Shown here: positions 10,921 through 20,739 of the stretch, piece by piece
How the letters are laid out: each line of letters begins with the position of its first letter
Numbering within the stretch: position 1 is the first letter of the stretch
Assembly: GCA_029560465.1 (NCBI GenBank)
Contig: JAKQKX010000050.1
Coordinates: 1 to 44,977, forward strand
Direction: 5' to 3'
Length of the DNA: 44,977 nt
DNA from: Candidatus Omnitrophota bacterium
GTDB taxonomy: Bacteria; Omnitrophota; Gorgyraeia; Zapsychrales; JANLHA01
Translations under genes and position numbers: made by a program
Notes under the pieces: model-generated
Database searches by the model: none
Told to the model about the DNA's origin: nothing
Seen by the model: only the letters and a program-made list of their open reading frames with translations

Positions 10921-12696
10921 CTAGGATTGCGGAAGGGTAAAACTGAAGGTGGAACCCTGCTCAAGCTCTGAGTGAACCCAAACTTGTCCACCGTGAGACA
11001 GGACAATATGTTTGACAATGGAAAGCCCTAGCCCGGTGCCCCCGATTTCGCGGGAACGGGCTTTATCGACGCGGTAAAACCGCTCAAAAATCCGGGGAAG
11101 GTCCTTCTCCGGGATCCCGATGCCGGTATCAGACACATCGACCTGGACAAACATGCCGTTTAAAAAAACATCCACTTTAACAGCCCCGCCGTCAGCCGTA
11201 TATTTAACCGCGTTATCAAGCAAGTTTAAAAAAACCTGAGCGAGCCGTTTATCGTCTGCCCTCACCTTGGGAATCCCTGCCGGGATGTTGACAGACACGG
11301 AAATGCGTTTATCCTTAACCGGTTTCTCCAGAACTCCAAGACAACGCAATAAGATCGGCTTGATCTCCAACGGGGCAAAAACCATGTTCATCTTACCAGA
11401 CTCAATCTTGGCTAATTCCAACAAATCATCAATAAGGTTCGCCAGACGGGCTGAATCCTGATAGATAATGTTAAGGAAATCCCTGACATTGTCTTTATCG
11501 TCGATGGCACCATCCAGGAGCGTTTCAGCATAACCTTTAATGCTCGACACCGGTGTGCGCAGTTCGTGAGAAACATTGGCGACGAAATCCTGCCTCACCC
11601 TTTCAAGCTTTCTCAACTCGGTAATATCGTGAAAGACCAGGACCGCCCCTTCTATAGCATCCTTCCTTACGATTGGAACGGCGTTAATCTTCAGGATTTT
11701 CTCTTCCGGCTGGCTCACCGTGACTTCTTCGCTGATCAGGGTTTGTTGGTCTTTTAAAATTCTATCCGTGATATCCTGAACCTGGGAATTCCGAATGGCT
11801 TCTATCGGCGACTTCTTTTCGGGATCGGAGTCCACGAAGAAAATCTTTCTTAAAGACGGATTCATCAGAAGAATACCGCCTTTTTCATCCACCACCATGA
11901 TCCCTTCAAACATGCTGGATAACACAGCGTCCAGCTTGGCCCCTTCTTGACTTATCCTGTCAATCTTGCTTTTTATCTCGTCAGCCATATCTGACAACGC
12001 TATCGCCAGATCGCCGATTTCATCCCTAGAATAAATTGAGGGCTTCTTGGTGAAATCGCCCCGGGCCATAGCCCGGGCGACACCGGCCATTTCATCCAAC
12101 GGCCTTGAGACAATGAGGGAAATAACAAAAGTGAACGCCAGGCTTAACATAAACACAAGGATAAGGGCGCCCAGGATTGTTTGTTTGAATTTACCCTCGA
12201 GCATCTCAATATAAGAGATAGGAACGGCGTATCTTATGAATCCGGCCGTCGCGTTCTCTTGACCGAAAGGCACGGCCATATACAGCAAATACTTCTTGAT
12301 CGTATAGCTGTATCTCTTGCTGACACCAAATCCTTGACTTAGGGCCTCTTGGATCTCCGGCCGGTCCAGATGATTTTCGACATCCGCGATCTCCCGCGCG
12401 TTCAGATCGGTGTCACCGATAACCGTGCCATCCAGCGCCAAAAGCGTGACCCGCACTCCTTGTTGCGCGCCTATCGTGTCCGCAAGAGTGTCCGTGACAG
12501 CAAGCATGTCGCGGCCGCGGATTCGGCTCTCGACCAGATCCCGGCCGGAAAGGAGTTGACGCTTTAGTGTACTCTCAAGATTACGCTCGACATACCCTTT
12601 CATATGAAAAGTCAGATAAAAATACCCGATGACCAAAGCGAGCATTATGGCAGAACAAAAGACATATGTGAGCTTCCAAGGGAGTTTAATCTTCAT
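10921..12696 (-). CDS. phoR: Phosphate-regulon sensor histidine kinase PhoR
   Basis: A 591-residue membrane kinase. TM1 is near residues 11-30, a periplasmic sensor domain of about 135 residues follows, and TM2 is near 172-196. After it come a HAMP domain (SRPLDEMAGVARAMARGDF), a PAS domain (about 255-360) and HisKA with phosphoacceptor His377 in VANVSHELRTPV. The catalytic domain has N box NLLDNAVKYT, DTGIGIPEKD and GTGLGLSIVKH. PAS-HisKA order and linkage to phoB make it PhoR. Unlike the short-loop E. coli PhoR it has a large extracytoplasmic domain, as in Firmicute PhoR. It overlaps phoB by 11 bases. Confidence 0.93.
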   Translation of the reverse strand: MKIKLPWKLTYVFCSAIMLALVIGYFYLTFHMKGYVERNLESTLKRQLLSGRDLVESRIRGRDMLAVTDTLADTIGAQQGVRVTLLALDGTVIGDTDLNAREIADVENHLDRPEIQEALSQGFGVSKRYSYTIKKYLLYMAVPFGQENATAGFIRYAVPISYIEMLEGKFKQTILGALILVFMLSLAFTFVISLIVSRPLDEMAGVARAMARGDFTKKPSIYSRDEIGDLAIALSDMADEIKSKIDRISQEGAKLDAVLSSMFEGIMVVDEKGGILLMNPSLRKIFFVDSDPEKKSPIEAIRNSQVQDITDRILKDQQTLISEEVTVSQPEEKILKINAVPIVRKDAIEGAVLVFHDITELRKLERVRQDFVANVSHELRTPVSSIKGYAETLLDGAIDDKDNVRDFLNIIYQDSARLANLIDDLLELAKIESGKMNMVFAPLEIKPILLRCLGVLEKPVKDKRISVSVNIPAGIPKVRADDKRLAQVFLNLLDNAVKYTADGGAVKVDVFLNGMFVQVDVSDTGIGIPEKDLPRIFERFYRVDKARSREIGGTGLGLSIVKHIVLSHGGQVWVHSELEQGSTFSFTLPQS

Positions 12697-13384
12697 CGTC
12701 TTCCTGTTTCAGTCGATAGCCTAATCCGACGACGGTTTCTATATACGTCCCGGCGGGCCCCAACTTTTCCCTCAACCGTTTTATATGCGTATCGACCGTG
12801 CGCGTGTTAACCTCGGCATGAATATCCCAAATTTCTGAAAGCAACCTGTCCCGGGTCTGCACTCTTCCCGGCCGCTCAAGGAATGTCACCAAAAGTTTAA
12901 ATTCCATCGGCGTGAGGTCAACGTCCCTGCCGTTCACCATGACCTTGTGGCGCGGCACATCCACGTTCAGGATGCCCCTGCTCAGGATCTCCCGTTCGGC
13001 CCCGCCCATTTTGCCCCGGCGCAAAATCGCTTTTATTCTCAGGATAAGCTCCCGCGGGCTGAACGGTTTCACAATATAATCGTCCGCGCCGAGCTCAAGG
13101 CCAACGATGCGGTCAATTTCCTCCCCTCGGGCTGTTAACATGACAACGGGGATGTCCTTAAATTTAATTTCCCGTTTGATGCAACGGCACACGTCAAACC
13201 CGTCCATTTTAGGGAGCATGATATCCAGGACGATCAAATCCGCTTTCTCTTTATCCAATGCCATCAAAGCATCCTCTCCGGACCCCGCAATGGAACAGGC
13301 ATAGCCGGCCTTCTCCAGGTTATACTTCAGTAATTTAGATATGTTGTTATCGTCTTCGATTATTAATATTTTTTCTTTAAACAT
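12686..13384 (-). CDS. phoB: Phosphate-regulon response regulator, OmpR family (PhoB/PhoP)
   Basis: A 232-residue regulator: receiver domain with EDD at residues 10-12, Asp54 in IVLDIMLPKMDG and Lys in YIVKPFSPREL, then a winged-helix DNA-binding domain from about residue 130 (LTPMEFKLLVTFLERPGR, recognition helix RTVDTHIKRLREKLG, GLGYRL wing). It is expected to bind the 11-base-spaced direct repeats found upstream of the two orphan receivers. It overlaps phoR. The 42-base gap to the upstream MFS gene holds no obvious Pho box, so it may be read from an upstream promoter. Confidence 0.93.
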   Translation of the reverse strand: MFKEKILIIEDDNNISKLLKYNLEKAGYACSIAGSGEDALMALDKEKADLIVLDIMLPKMDGFDVCRCIKREIKFKDIPVVMLTARGEEIDRIVGLELGADDYIVKPFSPRELILRIKAILRRGKMGGAEREILSRGILNVDVPRHKVMVNGRDVDLTPMEFKLLVTFLERPGRVQTRDRLLSEIWDIHAEVNTRTVDTHIKRLREKLGPAGTYIETVVGLGYRLKQEDDED

Positions 13385-13426: not shown

Positions 13427-14754
13427 CTAACGGAGGTGTTTATTATACCACTTTTTATATTCCCCGAGGGGGAATGCCCCGATGCCCAGCACGTTTAAGA
13501 ATAGCCGCCCAGGGCTGACCTCCACGACCGGCCGCACTTCTTTTACAAAGCGCGGCAGCGCAAGCCCGATGATGAGCCGCAGCGTGCCGGAAATCAAAAA
13601 GAGGCTAAAAATCTTATTATGAAATAGCGGCGGCAGGTACTGGATCAGAAACCCGCCGGCCATCGCTCCGGCCGCGAGCCCTGTTCCCGTTATAAAGGTA
13701 AAATACGCGACACACCGCGTCCGCTTTTCCGGCTTCACCGCGTCCATAATAAAGTTCGAAGTGCATAAATTAAACCCCGCCCACAAAAATCCCGAAAACA
13801 TCTCCACGAGGATTAAAAACACCGGGTTTTGGTTAATGATCCAAAAAACGGGCTGCAACAGAATAATGGCGCGATCAATCTCATGACTTTGAGGTTGCCC
13901 ACACGGTCGGCATGATGGCCCCACCGGCGGACTGTGGCATACAATGTCAACAGCAACAGCGTGTTGACCAGGGAGAACAAAAGATAGTTGAATTTTAAAT
14001 CCTGCAGCATCAGCACAGCGAAATATGGGGCGGCCAGGTTCACGCAAAAATTTACGCAAGTCACAAAAAGGGTAAACCGCACAAAATTGCTGGTCCGGTA
14101 TTGCCGGATAAATTCAAAAAATGTGAAATGATCTTCCTCACGGAATTCCAGAGGCGGTTCCTCCACCTTCCTCATAAACAGCCAGGAAAGCAGCCCAAAA
14201 ACCAATGCAACGCTGAATAGGATAAAGAACCCCGCCCTCTTCCTGACCTCGCTCATGGCCTGGAGGACAAGTCCGGCGATGATGGTTGAACCGACAGTAA
14301 CAAAGCCAAGATTACGGCTGCGCCAACCGAAATAGGTTCCACGCCGGGTCGGGAGCACCATATCCGAGAGCAGGCTGGTCAAGCCGGGGTTGATAAAAGT
14401 GCCGAAAACGTGAAAAAGCACAACCGGGATAATAAAGGTTATCGGCTTGACTGTGGGATCAAGGGTCATCCGGATCATAGCCAGCAGGGATAGCCCTTGC
14501 CACAGGATAAAAAATGAAGCCACGTTTCTCCGCGAGCGCATTTTGGCAACGGCTTCCGCACTGGCGAGCTGGAGCCCTGAAGAAAAAATATGATTGCAGG
14601 AGTTCATGAGGCCGACGTGGCGGGCGGTTCCTCCCAGCAGAAGGAGGAACGGCGTAAAGAAATCCTGAGTGAATCCAGCCATACCGCAGCGGGAAAGCCC
14701 CATCCAATAGGACAGTTTCAGGCTGTGATTTATCTTGTGATCTTCGATGCTCAT
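13427..14754 (-). pseudogene. MFS transporter, broken by a single-base frameshift
   Basis: Two overlapping frames together encode one complete ~440-residue major facilitator. The first frame (14754 to about 13872) holds the N-terminal segments, including NPGLTSLLSDMVLPTRRGTY and FGWRSRNLGF. The second (from about 13872 to 13427) continues with LLQPVFWIINQNPVFL, FSGFLWAGFNL and the last helices. Reading passes from one to the other if one base is restored near 13861-13872, where the sequence GCGCCATTATTCTG switches frame. It is either a recent frameshift mutation or a sequencing/assembly error. The substrate cannot be told. It lies 42 bases after the CDGSH gene and 42 bases before phoB on the same strand. 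Confidence 0.8.
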
Positions 14755-15149: not shown

Positions 15150-15953
15150 CTAGAATTCCAAATATGATTTCACCCTGTTCTGCCAACCAGGGAGCCATCT
15201 TCCTTCCTTACGATTCTCCGGCGCGTTTTTAACCCGCTCAACAAGCACCCTGTCCGCGACCCGCACGAATTCTTCCAGCGCTTTCATTCCTGTCGCTTCG
15301 CCATTCATTTCCGATAAAACCCGCAATAACCCCCAGCCTTGCCCTTTATAACGTTCTTTCGGCGCTGTCCCATACCCTTTAAAATTAATGTAATCAATCA
15401 TAGCGAAAATCCCTGCCGTGGAACTTGCGACACGGTAAAACTGCTTTTTTAATTTTTCCCGGCTCGGCCACGGCGTTTCCTGCAACATGAGAGGCAAGGC
15501 CCTTTCAAAACGTTGCACGATAAAATGGCCTTGCTCTGTTTTTGTTTTCAATAACAACTGCCGGAGGTCCAGCGCTTTCGCGCTCTGGATACCGATAAGG
15601 AAATTCTCTTTCGATGTCCAAGGGCACGAGGGCGGAGGGTCAACCGCCAGCCATGGGGGCATCTCTATCTCTATGCTCTTTAAATATTTCAAGAATTCAG
15701 GGAAACTTTCTTCAAAGGCGCCCGATGCCCCTTCTGGATACCAAATAAAATGCCCGATGCCCAAAGACAAGAAATCCTCCCCCTCGTTCCACGCCATAAG
15801 GCACTCATCCCTCCCAGAGCATTCGTTCTCAAAAACCTTCTGTGCGATCTTCCGGGCTTCCTCCGGGGATATGACAATGCCGGGAGTCCCGGCCCCGGCA
15901 CATTTATTAAAAACCAAAAAAAATAAAAAAATATTAATCCAAAGTTTCCTCAC
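15150..15953 (-). CDS. Exported protein, possibly lysozyme-like
   Basis: About 267 residues from a GTG at 15953, which gives a classic signal peptide (RKLW followed by INIFLFFLVF and cleavage near CAGAG). An ATG reading to 16001 would hide this signal behind 16 residues and has no good ribosome site. The mature part contains an acidic ENECSGRDECLMAWNEGEDF stretch and SLGIGHFIWYPEG, reminiscent of the active-site Glu plus Gly-rich strand of lysozyme-like muramidases, and ends WLPGWQNRVKSYLEF. Enzyme activity is therefore a hypothesis. The context supports a wall-directed role: the two genes upstream encode peptidoglycan-binding proteins. Confidence 0.65.
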   Translation of the reverse strand: MRKLWINIFLFFLVFNKCAGAGTPGIVISPEEARKIAQKVFENECSGRDECLMAWNEGEDFLSLGIGHFIWYPEGASGAFEESFPEFLKYLKSIEIEMPPWLAVDPPPSCPWTSKENFLIGIQSAKALDLRQLLLKTKTEQGHFIVQRFERALPLMLQETPWPSREKLKKQFYRVASSTAGIFAMIDYINFKGYGTAPKERYKGQGWGLLRVLSEMNGEATGMKALEEFVRVADRVLVERVKNAPENRKEGRWLPGWQNRVKSYLEF

Positions 15954-16112
15954 AAGACCCCGACCTGTTCTTCCCTGAAAGAAATACGACACCCCTACCA
16001 TCTAAAACAACTGAACCCCCATGCCATCGTGAAAGCGTGTCAAAAAATGTTTCAACGCGTTCCCAGGGAAAGCCACGCCCCCCGACAGGACAAGAGGGGT
16101 TGTGATTTTGGC

Positions 16113-16541
16113 TCACTCAAGATACGCCTTCAATTCACGCCAAGTCATCTGCCCCACCTTACCATCAACCTTTAACCCGTTATCCTCTTGAAACTTCATA
16201 ATTGCGGCCCGCGTCTTGGCCCCGATTCTCCCATCGATGGGACCGTGATAATACCCCGCGCTGTTCAATGCTTTTTGAATCTGGGCCACCGACGGGGTCC
16301 CAGGGGAGTTCAGCCCTCCTTCGCGCCTTCCCGGGGCGGCCGAGTGGTCTTCCCCATCCCGTTTATTTCTTTTTAGATCATATTTTAAATCCGAGATTTC
16401 CCTGTCTTTCTCTTGAATCTCCCGCTCCAAATAGGCAACCCTGTTATGACACTCCTGAAGTTCCTGAGAGTGATTCTTATCGACCGCTGCACACCCCGTT
16501 AAAAGAGCACAGAAAGCTAACACAAAAAAACCCCTAATCAT
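16113..16541 (-). CDS. Lipoprotein with coiled coil and peptidoglycan-binding domain
   Basis: A 142-residue lipoprotein. The signal peptide is MIRGFFVLAFCALLTGC, with lipobox LTGC placing the lipidated Cys at residue 17. A coiled coil follows (HNRVAYLEREIQEKDREIS), then a Gly/Pro/Ser linker and one PG_binding_1 domain (IQKALNSAGYYHGPIDGR, KFQEDNGLKVDGKVG, TWRELKAYL). GGAGG seven bases before the ATG at 16541 decides the start. It probably anchors at the envelope and tethers to the cell wall. It overlaps the preceding peptidoglycan-binding gene by eight bases, indicating co-translation. Confidence 0.88.
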   Translation of the reverse strand: MIRGFFVLAFCALLTGCAAVDKNHSQELQECHNRVAYLEREIQEKDREISDLKYDLKRNKRDGEDHSAAPGRREGGLNSPGTPSVAQIQKALNSAGYYHGPIDGRIGAKTRAAIMKFQEDNGLKVDGKVGQMTWRELKAYLE

Positions 16542-17136
16542 CCCGTTTCCTCCTGTTTTCATACTTCTGAAGTTCCTTCCATGTTTTATGATTCATGTCT
16601 CCGGTCTCTTTAAAATTTTTCGACCGCTGAAACTGTTGAATCGCCTTAATGGTCAATGGGCCGACCTTGCCATCAACAGCCCCCTCATAAAATCCCGCTT
16701 CCTTAAGCAGGGCCTGGATCTTCCTGGGATCATAAGAAACCTCCCGCGCCTCCTTACTTTTATTTCTCACGGCGAAACCATTGCCGTCTTTTATAAGGGC
16801 AACCGTTTGTTTCCTTAATTCCATCCATGTTCGGGAGTCAACTCTGCTGGTGGCGGCAATATTGTATTTTTCCTGAAACGCCTGCAGGGCCTTTCTGGTC
16901 TGGGGCCCCATTTTCCCATCCACAACCCCCTCATAAAGGTTCAAATCCGCGAGCATTTGCTGGATTTCTTTAACGCGGGGATTGAATCCCGAAACAGGCC
17001 CGATAAGCTGTTGTTCTTTTTTGTCCGGTTCTCCGGGGAACAGTCCGGCAAAACGCTCGTTGAGCGGGCTGACAAAAGTCACGACCACCCCCGCGATCAC
17101 AACCAGGAATATAAAAAACTTCGTTCCATCATTCAT
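16534..17136 (-). CDS. Membrane-anchored protein with two peptidoglycan-binding domains
   Basis: About 200 residues starting MNDGTKFFIFLVVIAGVVV, which is a single N-terminal membrane anchor. Two PG_binding_1 repeats follow: one with IQQMLADLNLYEGVVDGK and MGPQTRKALQAFQEKYNI, and one with IQALLKEAGFYEGAVDGK and VGPLTIKAIQQFQRSKNF. The C-terminus is strongly basic (ENRRKRDD). A TTG start at 17166 would add ten residues, but the Shine-Dalgarno there is too close. No catalytic domain is present, so the protein is a wall-binding or scaffolding protein. It lies between the orphan receiver and the peptidoglycan-binding lipoprotein. Confidence 0.87.
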   Translation of the reverse strand: MNDGTKFFIFLVVIAGVVVTFVSPLNERFAGLFPGEPDKKEQQLIGPVSGFNPRVKEIQQMLADLNLYEGVVDGKMGPQTRKALQAFQEKYNIAATSRVDSRTWMELRKQTVALIKDGNGFAVRNKSKEAREVSYDPRKIQALLKEAGFYEGAVDGKVGPLTIKAIQQFQRSKNFKETGDMNHKTWKELQKYENRRKRDD

Positions 17137-17246
17137 GGCTTCGAGCAACTCCCGCCTGTTTCTCAATCTCCTCTTCCAGGGCCTTAATGGGAAATAATTT
17201 TCTTAACCCGGGGAACCGTTTCTTAGAAAAACCGGAATTGCCAGCG

Positions 17247-17609
17247 CTATGTCAGACAGCCTAGAACCCTTTTCACCTTCTCAATCAAGACATCAACGCC
17301 CTGGACCTTGTCAAAATAATCATCGGCGCCGGGCACATAACGTCTTTGGTCATCGACACAATAAACGCTGGAAACGATAAATTTGAGTGGCAGGTCAAAC
17401 CGCCCGACAAGATCTTTAACATTGCCCCCGTTCATCCCCGGCATTTTGATATCCAATAAGACCAAATTGATGTCTTGATTCCTGAGTATTTCGGAAATCC
17501 CGTGCGCGGCATCCCGGGCCTCCACGACTTCGAAACCCTCTTGCGCCAGGACATTCCTATACGCGGCCCTGATTTTCTCTTCATCATCAATGATGAGGAT
17601 TTTCTTCAT
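17247..17609 (-). CDS. Single-domain response regulator heading the wall-protein operon
   Basis: A 120-residue CheY-like receiver with no output domain: IDDEEK at residues 7-12, Asp53 in LVLLDIKMPGMNG, a Lys in DYFDKVQG. The usual Thr/Ser switch position reads FIVSSVY, so Ser replaces Thr. AGGTGTC and GGGAGG precede the ATG at 17609. It follows a triple direct repeat and a complete two-component system on the same strand and precedes two peptidoglycan-binding genes, so it is probably controlled by the neighbouring OmpR-type regulator. Its output partner is unknown. Confidence 0.85.
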   Translation of the reverse strand: MKKILIIDDEEKIRAAYRNVLAQEGFEVVEARDAAHGISEILRNQDINLVLLDIKMPGMNGGNVKDLVGRFDLPLKFIVSSVYCVDDQRRYVPGADDYFDKVQGVDVLIEKVKRVLGCLT

Positions 17610-17664
17610 GACACCTCCCATAAAGCGACGTTTTAAATAAGTTGATTTATGTTAACAGGTTAAA

Positions 17665-17692
17665 ATGAGACTGGGATGAAAGCAAAATGAAA
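17665..17692 (-). promoter_or_regulatory. Triple 11-bp-spaced direct repeat, probable operator of the adjacent OmpR-type regulator
   Basis: Three hexamers on the plus strand, ATGAGA, ATGAAA and ATGAAA, begin at 17665, 17676 and 17687, each separated by five bases. On the minus strand they read TTTCAT, TTTCAT, TCTCAT toward the receiver gene at 17609. OmpR-family regulators bind such repeats in head-to-tail dimers. TAACAT, a possible -10, follows ten bases after the last repeat, the geometry of class II activation. Confidence 0.6.
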
Positions 17693-17719
17693 ACTTTCTC
17701 ATTTTGTTTGAGGAGATAT

Positions 17720-19222
17720 TCAGGAAAGCGGCAGGGAAACGGTAAAAACCGAGCCCTTATGGAGACAACTCTGCACTTCAATGACGCCTTGGTGAGCTTT
17801 GGCCACGGATTGGGCAATGCTTAACCCCAAACCGCTTCCTTTTTGAGAGTCTTCCTCTCTATTGGGAACTTGAAAAAAGCGGGTAAAAAGACAGGGGAGG
17901 TATTCTTCCGGTATTCCCGGCCCTTCATCGGCAATGGAGATTCTCAAATGATCGTGCCCCGCCATCGCCGCCAACGACACTTTGCCGCCCGGGGGAGTAA
18001 ATTTTATGGCGTTATGTATAATATTAAAAAAAAGTCTCCTTAAATGCAAGGGATCCCCGTTGAGAACGACGGCCTCTTGCGGCATAACACAGGATATTGT
18101 AATATCCTTTTCTTCAGCCAAAAGCTTTGTTTTATCAAAAATCGGAGTAAAAAATTCTTCAAAATCAAACCTTTCAAAATTCAAAAATGCAGGGCGGTAA
18201 TCAAGCTTCGCTAACAAGAGAAGATCTTCGACAATCCTGATTATTTTCTCTATTTCATCCATATTCTCTTTTAACACGGCCTTGTAATCAGCAACGTTTT
18301 TATCCGTGCGCAAAGCCACTTCTGTTTCACCTCGTAAAATCGCCAGAGGCGTCTTTAATTCATGTGCCACCTGAGAACTAAACTGTTCAATATGTTTGAA
18401 AGAATCCTCCAATCGGGCTATCATGTCGTTTAGAGAATCAACCAGCTCTTGCATCTCTTCATCAACATTCTTCTTCCCGAGCCTTTTCGACAAATCCCTG
18501 GACGTGATCTGGCGGGCCGTTAAGACAATGCTATTAACAGGCCGCAAGATCCTGTTGGCCAAAAGCCGGCCCAAGGAAGCCGTCATGAACAAAACAATGG
18601 GGATGCTGACCATAAAAAGCTTCTGCCTGTGCCGCAACAGGTCCAGGATGGGCTTTTCCGAAGCGGCCACCAAGACGAATACATGCCGGCCATTAGGCAA
18701 AGAAATAGCTGCCTGAATCTGCCTGTACTCTGTTTTATTGATTGTGACTTCCTTAAAAGTATCCTCGTGGAGAGAAATATCCAACCCGGCGATAAACTTA
18801 TTAAAATCGTCGGCGGATATATTGGGCGGGCGGAAAATCAATTTGCCGTCCGGCTCAAAAAAAGCGACCAGGTCCTGACTTAAATCCAGCCTGTCGAATC
18901 TGACAAACCATTTTTCTTCATCGGACAGGGGTTCCCCGCCAGTCCTCTTCTTTTTAGCCGCGGCAATGCTGGATTTGGGAGGGTACTGAAATGAAAAAAT
19001 CCGCTGGATAACCGCATAAACATCATCGCGTTTTGAAGCCGCCAACTCATCAGCGATGATATTGCCCAACTCATTAACTTTGCCGGACAGTTCTTCCTGC
19101 AGGTCATTAATAAGATATTGAGAAAGGCTAAGGTGCAGAAACCCGCTATAAAGAATCAGGATGACTCCAAGGATGATCGTGAACAAATTTCCGACTTTAA
19201 ACTTAATGGAGTTAAATTTCAT
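17720..19222 (-). CDS. HAMP sensor histidine kinase
   Basis: A 500-residue membrane kinase of the CusS/heavy-metal-sensor-like organisation. TM1 is near residues 12-33, then come a periplasmic sensor region of about 165 residues, TM2 near 203-220 and HAMP near 222-275. HisKA has His287 in SSQVAHELKTPLAILRGE. The ATPase domain has NIIHNAIKFTPPGG, ADEGPGIPEEY and GSGLGLSIAQS. It overlaps the response-regulator gene by four bases (ATGA). No metal-binding residues are obvious in the sensor region. The signal is unknown, and the genes downstream suggest cell-envelope status. Confidence 0.92.
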   Translation of the reverse strand: MKFNSIKFKVGNLFTIILGVILILYSGFLHLSLSQYLINDLQEELSGKVNELGNIIADELAASKRDDVYAVIQRIFSFQYPPKSSIAAAKKKRTGGEPLSDEEKWFVRFDRLDLSQDLVAFFEPDGKLIFRPPNISADDFNKFIAGLDISLHEDTFKEVTINKTEYRQIQAAISLPNGRHVFVLVAASEKPILDLLRHRQKLFMVSIPIVLFMTASLGRLLANRILRPVNSIVLTARQITSRDLSKRLGKKNVDEEMQELVDSLNDMIARLEDSFKHIEQFSSQVAHELKTPLAILRGETEVALRTDKNVADYKAVLKENMDEIEKIIRIVEDLLLLAKLDYRPAFLNFERFDFEEFFTPIFDKTKLLAEEKDITISCVMPQEAVVLNGDPLHLRRLFFNIIHNAIKFTPPGGKVSLAAMAGHDHLRISIADEGPGIPEEYLPCLFTRFFQVPNREEDSQKGSGLGLSIAQSVAKAHQGVIEVQSCLHKGSVFTVSLPLS

Positions 19223-19899
19223 AAAGGTGGCGTTTTGCTTAACATGTATCCTGTGCCTCTTATCGTGTGAATCAGCTGCCGTTTGAACGTCCTGTCCATT
19301 TTATTCCGCAAATATCTCACATAGACGTCAATAACATTTGTCAAGCTGTCAAAACTTTCATTCCAAACGTGTTCAGAAATCATCGTGCGCGTAATGACCT
19401 GCTCGGGGCGAAACATAAAATATTCCAACAACGCATATTCTTTTGTGGAGAGGCTGATATCCTTGCCGGCGCGTTTCACCTTGTGTGTTACTTGATCAAG
19501 TGACAAATCATCATATTGAAGCACTGTTGTCTTGTTGTCGTGCTTCCTTCGTAAAAGCGCCCTCACCCTCGCTAAAAACTCCTCAAAAATGAACGGTTTG
19601 GTCAAATAATCGTCGGCCCCGAGATCAAGACCCGCGACTTTATCTTCAGTCGAATCTCGGGCCGTCAGTATTAAGACAGGCGTTTTGTTGCCCTTCTTCC
19701 TTAACTCTCGGCAGACAAAAAAGCCGTCCCTGCCCGGGAGCATCACATCCAGAATGATCAAATCATACTCATTAATATCCGCAGAGTATAAAGCCCTTTC
19801 CGCATCAGAGACAACGTCGACAGCGTATTTTTCCTCCTTCAGGCCACGCTGAATAAAATTCGCCATCTTCTTTTGGTCTTCAACAACTAAAATTCGCAT
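19219..19899 (-). CDS. OmpR-family response regulator
   Basis: A 226-residue regulator: receiver with EDQ at residues 7-9, Asp51 in LIILDVMLPGRDGF, Lys in YLTKPFIFEEFLARVRALLRR, and a winged-helix domain (SLSTKEYALLEYFMFRPEQV, NVIDVYVRYLRNKMD, TIRGTGYML). It is most like the CusR/CopR/QseB group. It is partnered with the overlapping HAMP kinase and most likely acts on the triple repeat at 17665-17692, although that pairing is inference from position. The second acidic pocket residue is Asp followed by Gln rather than a pair of Asp. Confidence 0.92.
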   Translation of the reverse strand: MRILVVEDQKKMANFIQRGLKEEKYAVDVVSDAERALYSADINEYDLIILDVMLPGRDGFFVCRELRKKGNKTPVLILTARDSTEDKVAGLDLGADDYLTKPFIFEEFLARVRALLRRKHDNKTTVLQYDDLSLDQVTHKVKRAGKDISLSTKEYALLEYFMFRPEQVITRTMISEHVWNESFDSLTNVIDVYVRYLRNKMDRTFKRQLIHTIRGTGYMLSKTPPL

Positions 19900-19953: not shown

Positions 19954-20739
19954 TTACTCCCCGAGCCCCAAGAAGAAGAAAATGCCGGCGGCCAGGATCC
20001 GGTAAAACCCAAAGACAGTAAAATTGTTCCGTTGAATAAAACGCAGGAAGAATTTAATGCTGGCCATCGCCACAACAAACGCGGTCACAAAACCCATGGC
20101 CAAAAAAGAGAGTTGCCCCGCCTCCACGGAAAACCCGCCGGCGCTTTTAAGCAAATCAAACGCACTTGCCGCCGTCATTGTCGGGACAGCCAGTAAGAAA
20201 GAAAATTCCACAATCGTCTTGCGCCGCACCCCTAGAACAAGCCCCCCCACGATCGTCGCCGCAGACCGTGACACTCCGGGGATCATCGCCAGGGCCTGGA
20301 AAAGGCCTATCAAAACCGCGTCACGGTATGACAGTCGGCTGAGGTCCTCTTTCTTCCCGCCTGGTGTCTCACGGTAGAATTTTTCAAAAATGATCAGAAA
20401 AAGCCCCCCGAAGAAAAGCGACGCCACGACAACATCCGGGCTCCCTAGGAGGAATTTTTTAATAATCTTGTAAAGGACCAGCCCGGCTATCCCCGTGGGG
20501 ACAAAGGCCGCCAGGACCCGCTTCAGGACATCAACCTGGACGAGCAACGAACGGGCGTAAAAGGCAACCACCGCCAGGATCGCGCCCAACTGGATTGTAA
20601 TCTCGAAACTTTTCAGGAATTCGGTTTGAGAAAGACCCAAAAGCCGGGCCGTAAGAATTAAATGGCCCGTGGAAGAAACCGGCAAAAATTCCGTTAAGCC
20701 TTCAACAACACCCAGAATAAACGCGTGTGATAGATTCAT
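19954..20739 (-). CDS. uppP: Undecaprenyl-diphosphate phosphatase UppP (BacA)
   Basis: A 261-residue polytopic membrane enzyme that converts undecaprenyl diphosphate to the monophosphate, recycling the lipid carrier for peptidoglycan and other surface polymers. Both family motifs are present: VVEGLTEFLPVSSTGHL at residues 11-27 and PGVSRSAATIVGGLVLG in the middle. Length and topology are normal. It lies 54 bases upstream of the regulator gene and seven bases after the SPFH gene stop on the same strand, inside an envelope-related neighbourhood. Overexpressed UppP confers bacitracin resistance in other species. Confidence 0.96.
   Translation of the reverse strand: MNLSHAFILGVVEGLTEFLPVSSTGHLILTARLLGLSQTEFLKSFEITIQLGAILAVVAFYARSLLVQVDVLKRVLAAFVPTGIAGLVLYKIIKKFLLGSPDVVVASLFFGGLFLIIFEKFYRETPGGKKEDLSRLSYRDAVLIGLFQALAMIPGVSRSAATIVGGLVLGVRRKTIVEFSFLLAVPTMTAASAFDLLKSAGGFSVEAGQLSFLAMGFVTAFVVAMASIKFFLRFIQRNNFTVFGFYRILAAGIFFFLGLGE

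Follow-up and report, generated by a model that had tools for sequence, protein, structure and literature searches.

The window analysed here, a stretch of 44,977 nucleotides from a Candidatus Omnitrophota bacterium (contig JAKQKX010000050.1), carries on its minus strand a run of genes that begins with an OmpR/PhoB-type response regulator and a membrane sensor histidine kinase and continues, past an operator and a predicted promoter, with a stand-alone receiver, two peptidoglycan-binding proteins and a secreted protein (Table 1). The open reading frames and their Pfam matches agree with the original prediction, made from the sequence letters, which had placed a receiver gene, two PG_binding_1 genes and a gene for a secreted protein on one strand behind a set of hexamers, with an OmpR-type regulator and its kinase just upstream. 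The kinase and regulator genes overlap by 4 nt, and the genes of the two peptidoglycan-binding proteins overlap as well. Better starts could be read from the sequence for the receiver (17609, its frame being open back to 17621), the first peptidoglycan-binding protein (17136) and the lipoprotein (16541), the last of which has a lipobox-like LTGC motif. Directly upstream of the regulator lies a gene for UppP/BacA, which is possibly cotranscribed with it and stands outside the conserved unit described below. Three further features were seen on the minus strand of the window beyond the 15150 gene: a small ORF with CDGSH-like motifs (PFCDGSH, PFCDGTH; about 15057-14800), an MFS transporter (13427-14754) split, as though by a frameshift, over two ORFs that overlap in different frames (13813-14754 and 13427-14059), and shortly downstream a second regulator-kinase pair, PhoB/PhoR-like in appearance (10921-13384).

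Table 1. Features of the locus in the order in which the minus strand is read, with the evidence for each.
Feature	Position	Strand	Evidence or composition
UppP/BacA undecaprenyl-pyrophosphate phosphatase	19954..20739	-	PF02673 4.2e-72
OmpR/PhoB-family response regulator, CopR/CzcR-like	19219..19899	-	Response_reg 6.3e-29, Trans_reg_C 3.6e-25
Membrane sensor histidine kinase	17720..19222	-	HAMP, HisKA, HATPase_c
Predicted operator	17665..17702	-	inverted half-site ATGAGA, N4, TTTCAT, N5, TTTCAT, N5, TCTCAT
Predicted extended -10, TG-T-TAACAT	17649..17657	-	10 nt past last half-site
Stand-alone receiver (single-domain response regulator)	17247..17609	-	Pfam Response_reg 5.9e-17
Membrane-anchored protein with two PG_binding_1 domains	16534..17136	-	PF01471 6.7e-30, two stretches
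Probable lipoprotein, coiled coil and one PG_binding_1 domain	16113..16541	-	PF01471 1.2e-20
Secreted lysozyme-superfamily-like protein of a family without Pfam entry	15150..16001	-	conservation, fold model

Both signalling proteins narrowly miss the curated NCBIfam cut-offs for the heavy-metal CopR/CzcR regulators and CopS/CzcS kinases: the regulator scores 269.7 bits against a cut-off of 279.2 (TIGR01387) and the kinase 290.6 bits against 292.55 (TIGR01386). By these cut-offs neither belongs to its heavy-metal subfamily, and their sequences point to heavy-metal (CzcRS/CopRS) ancestry, as near-members of the CzcR and CzcS subfamilies. The original prediction had not noted this ancestry.

The 38-bp operator between the kinase and receiver genes consists of four half-sites, one inverted (arranged 6-4-6) and three direct ones 11 bp apart. 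The original prediction had derived a triple-repeat operator from three ATGARA hexamers at 11-bp spacing before the receiver gene. These are present to the letter (ATGAGA at 17665, ATGAAA at 17676 and 17687), and with their 5-nt gaps the 2.77-Mb genome contains the exact triple a single time and no copy of the reversed control pattern; what had been overlooked were the fourth, inverted half-site at 17697-17702 and the extended -10. When the whole window was scanned, this operator was the sole site scoring above 17, so that self-regulation of the 19219 regulator gene is not indicated here. At two other loci (L098 and L111) an extra operator precedes the regulator gene, a hint that in those genomes the regulator controls its own gene.

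Sequences preceding the receiver gene in the window and in two loci from other families could be aligned in identical register, all three with the inverted half-site, the gap of 4 and three direct half-sites at 11 bp. When 384 genomes of the phylum were searched by pattern, seven exact operator matches emerged: five immediately follow the kinase gene of a regulator-kinase pair of this kind, and a sixth immediately precedes the regulator gene of one. From the same genomes we collected 37 regulator-kinase pairs of this type, and a leave-one-out half-site model was applied to the 290 bases spanning and following the stop of each kinase gene. The operator scored above all 200 shuffles in 31 of the 37 intergenic regions, a test that is circular for those loci that had been fetched by an operator match. 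Because of this circularity, the architecture was tested again on the 23 loci not chosen by operator sequence, where a period of 11 bp scored 20.5 versus 9.9-12.4 for periods of 8-10 and 12-14 bp, an inverted first half-site scored 20.5 versus 17.2 for a direct one, and an inverted gap of 4 scored best. The half-site consensus is TTTMAT. A relaxed pattern of three half-sites matched ten places in the bacterium's own genome, against five for its reversed control, and is thus too loose for naming a regulon. Elsewhere in the phylum, one genome (G355; contigs 77, 30, 31, 192, 9, 72 and 136) has seven operator matches and another (G126; contigs 1 and 11) has four, most of them at places other than a kinase-receiver gap, which may represent multi-target regulons.

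The position of the predicted -10 element is conserved too. The motif TAnnnT follows the operator by 10 or 11 nt in 24 of 31 loci, any other offset being found in at most three, and is often preceded by TG. As the -10 played no part in the selection of loci, it lends independent support to the operator. Activator-dependent promoters of the PhoB/OmpR kind have direct half-sites at 11 bp, set a fixed short distance before a -10. The same arrangement is found here, and the operator lies at the place expected for activation of the receiver operon by such a regulator.

The nearest described DNA element is the box of the silver-response regulator AgrR, which its authors compared with CopR and PcoR and which binds an inverted 6-4-6 repeat plus extra in-phase direct half-sites (PMC7380067). 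The operator shares this AgrR/CopR-type layout, whereas the C/G pair of ATKACANNNNTGTMAT, essential in the AgrR box, is replaced both in the window (ATGAGA-N4-TTTCAT) and in the consensus. Layout and near-threshold scores together would suit an ordinary heavy-metal system of the copper/zinc type, with the wall genes being a response to metal damage or incidental neighbours. We consider this quite improbable, given not only the altered half-site but also the gene content: Pfam identified no metal-efflux or metal-resistance genes in the neighbourhood within the window, inspection by eye recognised no metal-efflux gene downstream of the related loci, and what recurs there are genes for PG_binding, OmpA-LysM, AsmA/TamB, MscS and small secreted proteins. 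The regulator and kinase are of the same type (TIGR01387, TIGR01386) as in CopRS, CusRS, CzcRS and AgrRS, but wall genes appear to stand in the place of efflux genes and a receiver gene lies in between.

A survey of the conserved neighbourhood, which had been proposed as a check on the original prediction, revealed a recurrent core of regulator, kinase, operator and receiver (hereafter the cassette), accompanied by wall genes in a large minority of cases. A stand-alone receiver is the next gene, within 300 bp, in 32 of the 37 pairs. In a receiver-profile search the scores dropped off after eight loci (E <= 1e-49), and all eight have a regulator-kinase pair upstream with the operator between. 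Furthermore, relatives of the 15150 product led to two loci in other families of the phylum that share the complete order of regulator, kinase, receiver, wall genes and 15150 relative. The earlier view that the regulator, kinase, receiver and wall genes are one unit thus gains from the joint recurrence of pair, operator and receiver across the phylum. Short A/T-rich hexamers are common, and a chance arrangement of hexamers and genes could be imagined on that ground; many families conserve operator, spacing, -10 and gene order, which contradicts it and leaves it with practically no likelihood. With its recurring core the cassette is, judged from these comparisons, very probably a genuine system of wall or envelope control and not a group of genes placed together by chance.

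The receiver itself appears intact. It consists of a receiver domain alone, and all 32 orthologues keep the phospho-acceptor Asp, the second Asp of the acidic pair, the Ser and the Lys, so phosphorylation is to be expected. Its first helix is unlike that of the regulator, which would make a simple role as phosphate sink for the shared kinase less likely. MrrA and EpsW are likewise described as single-domain response regulators without an output domain and with an intact phospho-site; the receiver described here differs from them in being fixed as the first gene behind a neighbour's operator.

Receiver and operator are far more constant than the genes that follow. Of 33 cassettes, 10 have PG_binding_1 genes behind the receiver. 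In the 23 that the receiver had led to, where wall genes had no influence on selection, PG_binding_1 is present in five and OmpA-LysM in one more. As most cassettes precede genes other than those for PG_binding_1 proteins (several contigs end early), the wall link belongs to a subset, and wall genes are a frequent, not a universal, output of the cassette. This pattern, with cassettes lacking wall genes common and relatives of the 15150 gene occurring without an operator, could mean that the operator controls the receiver alone, as a feedback device, and that the downstream wall genes have their own promoters and controls. We regard such an arrangement as rather unlikely, because the next gene overlaps the receiver gene in three loci (L036, L099 and L164), the window's own peptidoglycan-binding genes overlap, and distant families of the phylum show the same wall genes again. 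Small secreted proteins recur among the cassette targets in L036, L042, L099 and L156; the three that were scanned (L036, L042 and L099) had no Pfam match. In three further loci (L106, L107 and L113) the operator stands directly behind the pair, a receiver gene is absent, and genes for a small secreted and a cold-shock-like protein come next.

The kinases differ in their input regions: 28 make up one large group, a second group of 6 has a four-helix-bundle domain, and two stand alone. The input region varies between loci with the same output genes, and the groups have the operator and part of their targets in common.

The last gene of the run encodes the 15150 product, whose ORF carries the sequence GIGHFIWYPEG and which the original prediction had called lysozyme-like. 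Members of its family were found in 36 of the 384 genomes, fragments included, and also in Verrucomicrobia records. Glu60, Trp71, Glu75, Ser79, Gly81, Gly83, His84 and Trp87 are invariant among 35 members, and GIGHFIW is invariant or nearly so. By sequence the protein falls outside the GH46 chitosanase family (Pfam, PDB profile search): none of 33 family members has a Pfam glycoside-hydrolase match, and PDB sequence searches, including one with a 33-member profile, gave nothing useful. A first fold model (pLDDT 79.5) gave weak GH46 matches, and a model of the mature domain was better (pLDDT 85.2, pTM 0.83), the alignment behind the models comprising five sequences. The best three Foldseek matches in the PDB were GH46 chitosanases (probability 0.99, 0.95 and 0.89; TM-score 0.46-0.50), at weak E-values of 0.05-0.44. 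In the model a helix (46-61) with Glu60 near its end is followed by strands at 69-72, 77-80 and 85-87 that hold the invariant Ser79, and the lysozyme superfamily is defined by just such an invariant Glu at a C-terminal helix end followed by a beta-hairpin with a conserved Ser or Thr (PMC2976769). Model and fold matches thus favour the superfamily assignment, with weak E-values, and the proposed structural comparison with muramidases led to chitosanases as best matches with the lysozyme-superfamily signature present. Glu75 may be a second catalytic acid, by analogy with the Glu-Glu pair of DslA, a Bdellovibrio lysozyme that acts on the de-acetylated wall of prey (PMC7511926). The protein hence shares with the lysozyme superfamily, the GH46 chitosanases and DslA the Glu near a helix end, the hairpin with Ser and possibly a Glu-Glu pair, while it differs in having no Pfam or PDB sequence match and TM-scores of only 0.46-0.50 (PMC2976769, PMC7511926). 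A phage origin was considered as well: scans of viral contigs with the single protein and the 33-member profile, and searches of phage and plasmid proteins, found no relatives, so this origin is unsupported. A viral fold library gave only weak matches, some to endolysins, and a PHROGs search gave nothing meaningful.

Since its best fold matches are chitosanases, and since DslA of the same superfamily is aimed at prey, the 15150 product could be a secreted glycan hydrolase directed outward, against a competitor, prey or environmental glycans such as chitosan, rather than a remodeller of the cell's own wall. Its genomic company makes this a fairly unlikely role: in the order and class of the window a gene of this family repeatedly adjoins wall-binding genes, sometimes 1-15 nt apart or overlapping. 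In four loci, the window included, it follows the PG_binding_1 genes of the cassette. Most relatives lie outside the cassette, without the operator, and there they can form part of a nearly contiguous series, pg2-lys-pgLipo-Beta-lactamase2-OmpA, in keeping with a wall role of the family. The 15150 gene is preceded by a gap of 111 nt, which makes co-transcription through it uncertain; the gap contains no strong terminator and folds no better than shuffles, and an Rfam search found no RNA element.

The best explanation, which we think likely, is that an OmpR/CopR-type envelope two-component system activates a wall operon. Sequence and comparison support its gene order, operator, promoter position, conserved unit, intact receiver and fold; binding, activation, co-transcription to the last gene, the envelope signal, enzyme activity and the role of the receiver are what we infer from them. 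The membrane kinase would sense a periplasmic or membrane cue and phosphorylate the regulator, which would then bind the four predicted half-sites. These would substitute for a -35 element and bring RNA polymerase to the extended -10, yielding in order the small receiver, the two peptidoglycan-binding proteins and the putative secreted hydrolase of the lysozyme superfamily. The wall-binding proteins may tether or reinforce the envelope and the hydrolase may trim glycan strands. In most cassettes the receiver gene comes first behind the operator, and its product would tune the pathway. A wider proposal, which we hold tentatively and with more doubt than confidence, is that regulator, kinase, operator and receiver are the core envelope-control device of the whole phylum, that the receiver is a second signalling output made first, that kinase inputs are exchangeable while operator and targets stay, and that the 15150 proteins form a new family of glycoside hydrolases within the lysozyme clan.

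VxrAB, WalRK, MtrAB and CenKR likewise put envelope and wall genes, in some cases including wall hydrolases, under two-component control; their regulator subfamily, operator and gene sets differ from those of the cassette. To our knowledge, none of the four has a stand-alone receiver as its first target.

The bacteria of this phylum are known here only from genomes, and our impression, from fragmented genomes, is that the phylum is uncultivated. The definable DNA element, with its four half-sites, 11-bp phase and extended -10, is tied to wall-binding and putative wall-cutting genes and could make regulons predictable from sequence alone in the phylum. Moreover, the 15150 family is a candidate new family of the lysozyme superfamily for biochemistry, and in the cassette nature has repeatedly given a receiver gene a fixed place behind the operator of its neighbour, so that the function of stand-alone receivers can be tested directly.
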